Assembly (NCBI RefSeq): GCF_027943255.1
Contig: NC_072892.1
Location: 25,009,792-25,073,791, forward strand
DNA: 64,000 bases
Origin: Anastrepha obliqua
Lineage: Eukaryota; Arthropoda; Insecta; Diptera; Tephritidae
Direction: 5' to 3'
Position numbers and translations under genes: made by a program. Below the pieces are notes generated by a model that searched no databases, had not been told where the DNA came from, and saw only the letters and a list, made by a program, of their open reading frames with translations. Of this stretch, positions 48,045 through 52,136 are shown one piece after another (positions within the stretch are counted from its first letter, which is position 1; each line of letters starts with the position of its first letter).

Positions 48045-48097
48045 GTCTATATTTAAACAATCTTTTATTTTTCCACATAGTCTTCTTCTAGGCTTAT

Positions 48098-48608
48098 GAG
48101 TCAAACCACGTCAAGTGGGCCCCGAATTTTCCATCAAATTCTCGATTTTAAAATCAAATGCATTTTTGGATAGAGAATTTGTCACATAATAATTGCTGTG
48201 AATAGTTTTTTTTATTTCGCTTCTTGTTTAAGTTATTAACAATTGAATTTTTTTGCATGATATTCTTGTAAAATCAATATCTCAGAAACTGCAATTGATA
48301 ATTTGATGAAATTTATTTCGGTTACCGAAAAATGTTTACTCTACCGATTTAACGTTCAAAGACTGTGTATTTGTTGAAGCAATAAGTTTTAACAATAATT
48401 TTTATCAAAAATTGCAATTATTTTTGCGTTCTTCACGCTCTAAATGGACAATATTACAGTCAGATTAAGCGCACAATGCTCACCTTTAATAATCTGTAAA
48501 AAAAACTTTGTTCATCCAATCCGTTCTGAAGATATCGAATTTTTTGTGAGTCGAGGCACTACGCACGAAAACGAACTTGCATGAACATGGCTGTGCAGAG
48601 TCGTATCC
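48098..48608. repeat. Left inverted arm of the long-TIR transposon
   Basis: Aligns almost without gaps to the complement of 51153-51662; only scattered single mismatches are seen. A second partial copy of the motif CCGTTCTGAAGATATCGA follows just inside at 48607. Confidence 0.92.
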
Positions 48609-48802
48609 GTTCTGAAGATATCGATTTTTTTGTGCAACGCGACGCGCTTCACAGTTGGCCTTGCATTGTCCCATGGGATCATACGCTAAAACGTATAGCA
48701 CTTAAAAAAGACATACAAAAGGATTAAGGATTCAAAAATGAGGTGTTTCATTACTAGAATTTTTATTACATACATCAATATCTACATGAAAACATACAAA
48801 AT

Positions 48803-51065
48803 TTAATTAGTAATAATAGTCTCGAAACAAGATGTGTCCTCGGAGAAGATTTTACTTCGAATCTTTTTGTTACTTGCAGGTTCGAAGTGATGAAATTGCC
48901 GCGTTTTTTTGATAGCTATTGCCTCATTGAAGCGTTTGGAAATTTTTTTTTCATGTGCATCATGATATTTTTGCGAACAAAAAACAAAATCTATCGATTT
49001 AAACGCACCTTTGGCCCACTCGAAAAGAGCTTTAGCATCGCGAATATGATTTCCAGCAACACACTGCATACTTGCTTTTCGAGCTAGTCTTTTAACTGCT
49101 CCGCCGACCCCATCCCAAGCTCCCTTGCCATGGGAAGTCGCGAAGAAATTCCATTCAGCTTCGATTCCGAAATCTTTTTTGTGGTAATATAGGTTCAAAA
49201 AGTTAGATTTATTCTTGTACTGCGATGCAGCTCCATCAGATAAATAAGAGAACTTTTTTATATTTCTGGATCCAAATTTGCTTTTAAGATATTTAACAAG
49301 TCTTGTGTTGAATAAGTGAACCGAACTTGTATCGTGGGTTAGTTTTTCAGAAATGATGACAAGGCTTAAATGATGCTGTTTACCATCGATACAATAGTAA
49401 ATTACATATGGATGAATGGTAACTTGAGTATTTGACCAGTGATGAGCTTGGATCGCATCTTACACTTGAATTGTGTAGTTTTCTGCAAAATCTAACGTGA
49501 CAACGAATTCCCCCATCACTTGCAGTATTTTTCTTTTCAACAAAGTAAGCTGCTTGGGCTTTTGATAAAAAGTCATGCTTTAACACGGATGCTAGATCTT
49601 CGCTTAACTTTTTCAAAAACTCAGCTATCTTATCCGTCGTTTGTAATATACTATATCACAACTGCAAAAAAAGTGTACAAGAAATTGCACTGCTAATTCA
49701 TTTAAAATTTTTTAGTTACCGATCAGTGTTGATCCATTGAGTAAACGTGACTTCTTCAACGTTATTTTTAGTCAATATTTCTTGCAGTTCATCAATGATC
49801 GGGGCCACTCCAGAACATTTTTTACATTCCCCAAAATAACAAACTGACGTTGATATTTTGCACACAGCACGCTTTATGTAATCGCCCATAGATTCTTTAA
49901 AGGCGATCTTACGTGTGCAAAGTTCTTGCTTGATTCCATATATTTTTAGAGCCACATTTTGATGTATTTTGCAAACACATATGTACATTGTGCGTGCCGT
50001 TTTGGTCTGCAAGAATACATTGATGGGGTCTGAGGTATCGAAATCTTGATAAACCAATCTGAATGTCAGGATACTCTATTTTAAAGTGTTCATATAAATC
50101 CACCAAATTGTAAAGTAACAGTCTCTTCTGCGGTTTCAATTTCTTTCCATTTTCATAAACAGTTACACAATCTTTCATTCCAGGTAACAACCTGCTGCAA
50201 TAGTCTGATAAATAGAAAGCTTTAACTTTTTCAATAGTCGAGCTCGGAATACGTTTTCCACGCTTCTTATCAGGCACAGATCCAACCCCCCTTTTCTTTT
50301 TCAATTGTTTGGCTTTTGATGCCATCCTTTTCGAAATACTAAATGTTTCACGCATTTGTTTCGATGTTACCTCATCTGGTACCGTTGTTAAAATTTGAAT
50401 TTTATCATTTGTATTTTTTTTCTGACGTAAAGCAGACTTTATATTCTCCACAAATGCTGAATTCAATTTTTTTTTCCTTGTTGAATATTAACTCTCGCGG
50501 TATTTATTTTTTTCGTTGATGATTTCTACTATTATCTCTGTGACATTCATATCACTTAATTTTGAAAAACGTCGTTTTTTTATTGGCGGTTCACCAAGTT
50601 CCTGTAAAATATTGTTCACCTTTTCTAATTTTAGGTTATTCTGAATTTCCTGGTTTTCAAAATTAGCTTCACTATCCGAACATTCTTCTGCATCACAGGA
50701 ATCTTCAGACTCATCGTTTTCTGCTCCTTGGCCAGCACTAGAAAAAATTAATCAAAATTTTCTGTCACAAATTTTGAGAACTAATTGACTTTATTTGCCT
50801 AAATAATAACTATTCAATGCACAATATATGTATATAAATATCAAGATTATACCCACTGTGGACTTGGACGTATATACGCTGCACTTTCAGTAACACTTCC
50901 ATCTCTATATATCTTCATACGACATGATTTGTAAATGTATTTACCGATATATTGCTTGAATTTTACATCCCAGTGAGCGGTTATTTGGAATAAATTATGA
51001 CGTACGTAATTATGACCTTTTTTCCCCAACGGATTGCAACACTCATCAGGTCGAACCATTTTCAT
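48803..51065 (-). pseudogene. Transposase gene of the long-TIR element (introns, two stops, two frameshifts)
   Basis: Proposed exons on the minus strand are 51065-50857, 50737-49715 and 49650-48803. The donors GTGGGT and GTAACT and the acceptors TTTTTCTAG and GATATAG keep the phase. The N-terminus has a Cys-Cys/His patch (PDECCNPLGKKGH). The middle reads KVKAFYLSDYCSRLLPG, KPQKRLLLYNLVDLYEHFK and SRFRYLRPHQCILA, then GTHNV-CVCKIHQNVAL. The core reads EFVVTLDFAENYTIQV, SYLSDGAASQYKNKSNFL and AEWNFFATSHGKGAWDGVGG. The Asp and Glu of these blocks are candidate DDE residues (inference). Defects are TAA at 50488-50490 and 49460-49462 and frame changes near 49990 and 49510. I recall proteins with the HGK..DG.GG block from cnidarian and insect genomes, but no superfamily name is asserted. 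Confidence 0.8.
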
Positions 51066-51152
51066 AACAATACATAATAATTTTTTTCTAACCTCAAAGC
51101 ACAGACAGCATACTACTAATCACAGCACACTGACACTAGAAGTTGCGGCGAC

Positions 51153-51662
51153 TGTACGACTCTGCAAAGCCATGTTCATGCAAGTTCGTTTTCGTGCGTA
51201 GTGCCTCGACTCACAAAAAATTCGATATCTTCAGAACGGATTGGATGAACAAAGTTTTTTTTACAGATTATTAAAGGTGAGCATTGTGCGCTTAATCTGA
51301 CTGTAATATTGTCCATTTAGAGCGTGAAGAACGCAAAAATAATTGCGATTTTTGATAAAAATTATTGTTAAAACTTATTGCTTCAACAAATACACAGTCT
51401 TTGAACGTTAAATCGGTAGAGTAAACATTTTTCGGTAACCGAAATAAATTTCATCAAATTATCAATTGTAGTTTCTGAGATATTGATTTTACAAGAATAT
51501 CATGCAAAAAAATTCAATTGTTAATAACTTAAACAAGAAGCGAAATAAAAAAAAACTATTCACAGCAATTATTATGTGACAAATTCTCTATCCAAAAATG
51601 CATTTGATTTTAAAATCGAGAATTTGATGGAAAATTCGGGGCCCACTTTACGTCGTTTGACT
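51153..51662. repeat. Right inverted arm of the long-TIR transposon
   Basis: Complement of 48098-48608. The transposase ATG at 51065 lies about 90 bp inside this arm, so the arm may carry the promoter. Confidence 0.92.
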
Positions 51663-52136
51663 CTTATACATTTCATTCAACGCTGTTTTTTACCATAGTT
51701 TGTTGACCGCCTCTGAATTATAGGATTTGTTCAAATCTTAAAAATAGCCATTCGTTTCTGCCAACACCTTTACGTTTGAATAAAATCTTTTTCCCGCCAG
51801 TTATTTTTTCAATGGGGAACAAATTGTAGTCCGAGGAACTCAATGGAGTTCTGGAGCTTGGATTATAAGAGGGATGTGAAACGAGTTGGAACTCTATTTC
51901 CATTAATTTTGCGATCACAACTGCTGAGGCGTGAGTTGATGCGTTGTCGTGATGGAAAGGGAAAATCACTCGACTTTCTCGTTTCAAAGGAAAGGGCAAA
52001 CACAAAGAAATAAACCGATCTGTATGAAACTTGGTGTGTGTTCTTCCAAGAGAGGCTACTAACTAAACATAACCTTGATACGCGCCAGTAATGCCATCTC
52101 GCTGACTTTGCACATACTTTTCAAATACCCCTCCTA

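Follow-up and report, generated by a model that had tools for sequence, protein, structure and literature searches.

The window analyzed here, a 64,000-nucleotide stretch of the genome of the tephritid fly Anastrepha obliqua (contig NC_072892.1, positions 25,009,792 to 25,073,791 of the forward strand), contains at positions 48098-51663 a long-armed DNA transposon of 3566 bp whose transposase gene lies on the minus strand. The ends of the element, GAGTCAAAC / GTTTGACTC, both read inwards as GAGTCAAAC, with GAGTC/GACTC as terminal bases. The inverted arms align over 512 bp with 98.6% identity (48095-48605 against 51155-51666), a likeness far beyond chance; the arms proper comprise 508 bp on the 3' side of the gene (48098-48605) and 509 bp on its 5' side (51155-51663). 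Since the same two-armed structure is found again at 39 further genome sites with both ends readable, the long-armed transposon proposed in an initial annotation of the window sequence is real. Its start had been placed correctly at 48098, while its end moves by one base from 51662, which had given a length of 3565 bp. The CTTAT described on both flanks was a misreading, because the C is the terminal base of the element itself (GACTC); comparison of the flanks yields instead a target site duplication of 4 bp, TTAT, at 48094-48097 on the left and 51664-51667 on the right. Next to the inner edge of the left arm, a 30-bp stretch (48519-48548) is repeated just inside the element (48605-48634, 97% identical), and this repeat also occurs beside the arms of other copies.

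The genome was searched over 836 Mb in 204 contigs. An arm query reports at least 47 matches (40 of 276 candidates scored) and an exon 3 query at least 50 (40 of 100 candidates scored), these counts being lower bounds because only part of the candidates was scored. Together with the window copy, 32 further places that were fetched make a set of 33 copies, 30 of them two-ended; L020 and L034, for which the fetched sequence holds a single arm, and L027, whose second arm is truncated, were left out. Among these 30, a perfect 4-bp duplication is present in 29 and a 5-bp duplication in none. Ten further sites with both termini, added by hand, bring the set to 40, of which 37 are flanked by a perfect 4-bp duplication and 0 by one of 5 bp; when flanks were shuffled among copies (2000 shuffles), the 4-bp matches averaged 2.5 and never exceeded 9. 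A 5-bp duplication is thus rejected (0/40), and the arm search that the initial annotation had proposed for confirming a duplication of 5 bp (or another length) returned many copies and a length of 4 bp. The duplicated sequences are rich in A/T: across 36 unique sites, symmetrised, 67% begin with A and 67% end with T, and several hold G or C inside; TTAA occurs at none of the 40 sites. The number of unique duplicated sites is 36 because L046 and L047, which lie ~50 kb apart on C6 (near 2.31 Mb and 2.36 Mb), are identical in the flanking bases compared; this shared flank suggests that they probably derive from a segmental duplication and not from separate insertions.

Most copies are internally shortened (26 of the 30 measured): four are 3481-3566 bp long, and the other 26 range from 1625 to 2809 bp. 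Several, e.g. L061, L063-L067, L069, and L070, have a deletion border in common at element positions 1329/2247, and therefore an internally deleted form has multiplied. Matches to the window element cover at least 99% of the length of 27 of the 30 copies. The interiors of L029, L032, and L038 include 505-614 bp unmatched by the window element (element positions 899-1512, 762-1366, and 638-1142, respectively), which represent either the interior of another subfamily or captured DNA.

The transposase gene comprises three exons on the minus strand. Exon 1 (50857-51065) provides the start codon and a Cys-containing N terminus (MKMVRPDECCNPLGKKG...), to which residues 1-51 of the homolog P0001 align. 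It is followed by intron 1 (50738-50856, 119 bp, GTGGGTAT...TTTTCTAG), whose length is not a multiple of three, then by exon 2 (49720-50737), intron 2 (49662-49719, GTAACTAA...TTTTGCAG; 58 bp, 59 bp in L010, L011, and L013), and exon 3 (48803-49661), which encodes the catalytic domain and aligns with P0001 residues 458-702 at 57% identity. The two-intron gene of the initial annotation is borne out by copy L013, the joined exons of which are open for 569 codons across both junctions, while its introns of 119 and 59 bp would break the frame; exon 3 of this copy then has a deletion. P0001 contains an extra in-frame stretch at the site of intron 2, and the confidence of its structural model falls below 50 at residues 410-428; an unspliced intron would explain both. 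Read as spliced, the window copy has two in-frame stops and three frame changes: exon 2 holds one of each, and exon 3 the second stop and the other two frame changes. The two stops and the lightness of the damage had thus been noted correctly, and a third frame change is added to the two frameshifts counted earlier. The gene is not fully open in any of the seven copies checked for it (the window copy, L009-L013, and L045), and L009 matches P0001 residues 430-702 without a stop.

A total of 646 homologs of the protein was found, 120 of which were listed, and 52 of these 120 were aligned (alignment A1). The alignment reveals a conserved D..D-40-D motif, the three aspartates of which are presumed from their conservation to be the DDD catalytic residues of a transposase. 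Their codons lie on the minus strand at 49490-49492 (LDFAENY; P0001 D484, D in 51/52 aligned homologs), 49235-49237 (SDGAASQYKN; D569, 51/52), and 49112-49114 (SHGKGAWDG; D610, 52/52); by a pattern count, 6 of the 120 proteins lack one of the three Asp patterns. The core is predicted to adopt an RNase H-like fold resembling that of retroviral integrases. No sequence similarity was found with the catalytic cores of retroviral integrase, SETMAR/Mos1, or IstA, from which the ends, arms, and duplication also differ. Pfam and NCBIfam scans of window pieces return no match above the curated cut-off, and no Pfam transposase model is recognized in these pieces (E≤1) or in the 52 members of A1 (E≤0.01). 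A PDB sequence search with a window piece gives chance matches only, a viral structure library has no match at E≤0.001, and collections of viral and genome contigs contain no related locus, as expected for an animal transposon.

None of the 120 listed homologs has a transposon name. One of them, the 'Cc8L18.2-like protein' of Brassicogethes aeneus (P0065), is homologous with 40% identity over the query region; Cc8L18.2 is presumably a bracovirus gene name, and a literature search for it found no mention. In the predicted beetle protein P0013, a hAT-type transposase piece is joined to this catalytic domain in two tandem copies, a fusion that gene prediction probably created by running across nested transposons. 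P0005, P0040, P0043, and P0118 possess an extra C-terminal domain of ~100 residues (WW..C...FLHP.GP...TGR.Y), of which the window family and P0001 are devoid.

Three features, namely duplications of 4 bp, a DDD motif set on a predicted RNase H-like fold, and arms of ~509 bp, together suggest that the element is an inactivated member of a cut-and-paste DNA transposon family of Sola type with many copies in this genome. We give this a probability of about 0.7, membership in Sola being a reading of the architecture. The family would be a new one within an established type of transposon, placed in Sola by the published description. In excerpts from PMC10741241, the Sola superfamily (Sola1, Sola2, and Sola3) is characterized by a DDD transposase, 4-bp duplications, a length of mostly 2-9 kb, arms of 11-1124 bp, and variable ends, and the motif, the duplication, the 3566-bp length, and the 508/509-bp arms of the element all lie within this description. 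In a slime mould, the duplications of Sola2 are of type AWWT according to excerpts from PMC3627910; they are A/T-rich as here, where position 1 is A and position 4 is T in two thirds of cases each and several duplications have internal G/C. The Sola-like candidate of the initial annotation thus stands by architecture and its 'unplaced' label is largely resolved; the arms, whose combination with an intron-containing transposase it had considered rare, are not exceptional in length, which, like that of the element, is inside the Sola range. Overall, its observation is confirmed and its interpretation partly supported. A surface-level literature search found no description of the element in fruit flies.

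Several observations weigh against the Sola assignment or the model behind it. The filing is by description, and 4-bp duplications are also made by other groups, such as Ginger1 and Chapaev. The predicted fold resembles known structures weakly, the best Foldseek hit in the PDB being an RNase HI with an E-value of 0.019 (the comparison covers the top 1000 chains, and transposase families absent from it are not used as evidence), and a PDB sequence profile search reports nothing at E≤1. Splice sites are altered in some copies (the intron 1 donor in L045, the intron 2 acceptor in L012), and three of the 40 sites (L030, L050, and L069) have no 4-bp match. Lastly, the fetched elements of the sister families described below have ATAT at both flanks, and, this sequence being palindromic, the duplication length of the sisters is not independently fixed.

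An alternative is a distinct superfamily of DDD elements with 4-bp duplications, a 'DD40D' group that would use the same cut-and-paste chemistry as Sola and would not have been described as such. The missing match to any Pfam or NCBIfam transposase model, the homolog names free of transposon terms, and the lack of a PDB sequence relative at E≤1 speak for such a group, which we nevertheless regard as unlikely: a family with 646 homologs is probably in Repbase already, and every superfamily feature that can be checked lies inside the Sola description as given in the excerpts from PMC10741241. Two other relationships are suggested by arm length and are far less probable. The excerpts from PMC4168063 describe a copy of Galileo, a foldback-like element of the P superfamily, whose terminal inverted repeats (TIRs) measure 1575 and 1608 bp and share 97.5% identity, a further case of very long and near-identical arms in a fly. 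A kinship with Galileo or other foldback elements is however very improbable, as the P type is disfavoured by the protein, in which no P-type or THAP domain is detected by Pfam (window pieces, E≤1; 52 members of A1, E≤0.01), and by the duplication of 4 bp. P-type elements produce duplications of 7-8 bp. Mutator-like elements (MULEs), the other candidate of the initial annotation, have TIRs that are usually relatively long and sometimes exceed 300 bp according to the excerpts from PMC10741241, which also give them duplications of 7-12 bp; this length, against the 4 bp observed here, excludes them, the Pfam scans contain no MULE domain, and we rate this origin as the remotest of those considered. 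The TTAA-only 4-bp duplication assigned to piggyBac and Kolobok in excerpts from PMC9587614 likewise excludes both, as TTAA is found at 0/40 sites.

The same genome harbors related elements. With P0005 as query and 58 of 760 candidates scored, at least 65 matches to more distant relatives are reported, and open frames of more than 600 residues occur among them. In a first sister family, the two examined copies (L071 and L072) share 99.5% identity across 3.66 kb, and their 483-bp arms are 97.7% and 96.7% identical, respectively; L071 has an open frame of 650 residues and no introns, and the arm query of this family gives 42 matches (all 38 candidates scored). A third family, represented by one copy (L073), exhibits 583-bp arms of 98.8% identity and an open frame of 661 residues, again devoid of introns. 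The sister proteins share 40% identity over 510 residues and 38% over 511 residues with the window protein, and the sister elements end in GAGGCATT and GGGACG, after ATAT. Arms of ~500 bp (483-583 bp) are therefore common to all three families examined, and the open frames of the two sister families agree with the earlier suggestion that active relatives may exist.

The two arms of a copy were compared over their first 440 bp in 39 copies (78 arms; L047 left out as a duplicate). The nearest arm is strictly the partner in the same copy for 53 arms and tied with another for 6, and arms of the same copy differ by 1.05% on average, arms of different copies by 3.17%; the lowest mean among 5000 random arm pairings is 2.68%. 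Because the within-copy distance is smaller than the between-copy distance, the arms of a copy seem to be homogenised. Minority variants occur 189 times in both arms of a copy and 173 times in one arm only. We read these results as a sign that, in the source copies, one arm is copied to the other before the element transposes or while it does so, and that the arms then change independently. Some of the variants found in both arms will be subfamily markers, and part of the likeness could stem from subfamily structure. That young age and subfamily structure would explain all of it, with no homogenisation, is doubtful. This explanation draws on the arm matches of full length in the rest of the genome, all 96-99% identical to the window arm among the matches listed, which points to fairly young copies, on the 19 of 78 arms for which the partner is not the nearest, on the subfamilies with common deletion borders, and on L030, the only one of the first 30 copies with arms less alike (0.970 identity) than their mean to other copies (0.978). 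A single seeding source lineage predicts equal distances within and between copies, however, and the values observed differ beyond the range of the random pairings. In a bolder proposal, the DD40D group, of which one genome holds three or more families separated by deep splits, the three examined with arms of ~480-580 bp, would form a superfamily of its own, its arms kept identical by arm-to-arm copying tied to transposition, so that freshly matched arms would date each insertion as long terminal repeats (LTRs) do for retrotransposons. We consider this unlikely.

The element interrupts a degenerate mariner-like relic on the minus strand, which extends upstream from 51668 to ~52000 and whose C-terminal codons lie on the far side, at 48059-48093. 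Flanks joined with a single TTAT restore a mariner-like reading, KC|ISLEEDYVEK*, the end of which we take to be a mariner-type C terminus. The upstream part gives weak PDB sequence matches to SETMAR and Mos1 (E 0.043-0.7), on which, with this C terminus, the assignment is based, and a Pfam scan of the relic stretch reports no match.

Regarding mechanism, the spliced three-exon transposase, with its RNase H-like DDD core, would bind the inverted arms, cut at GAGTC/GACTC, and join the ends to an A/T-rich target with a 4-bp stagger, giving the 4-bp duplications. The internally deleted derivatives may be moved by enzyme supplied from other copies, and the two arms of a copy would be kept alike, probably because one serves as template for the other when the excision gap is repaired, or through gene conversion. 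The family provides a multicopy element with sharp ends and a defined duplication for a group of transposases that, in the searches made here, has neither a Pfam model nor a sequence-related solved structure. Activity is testable, since sister elements in the same genome have open frames and arms that match each other. The closeness of the arms within a copy is the most interesting part of the finding, as it makes testable how and when long-armed DNA transposons keep their arms alike.
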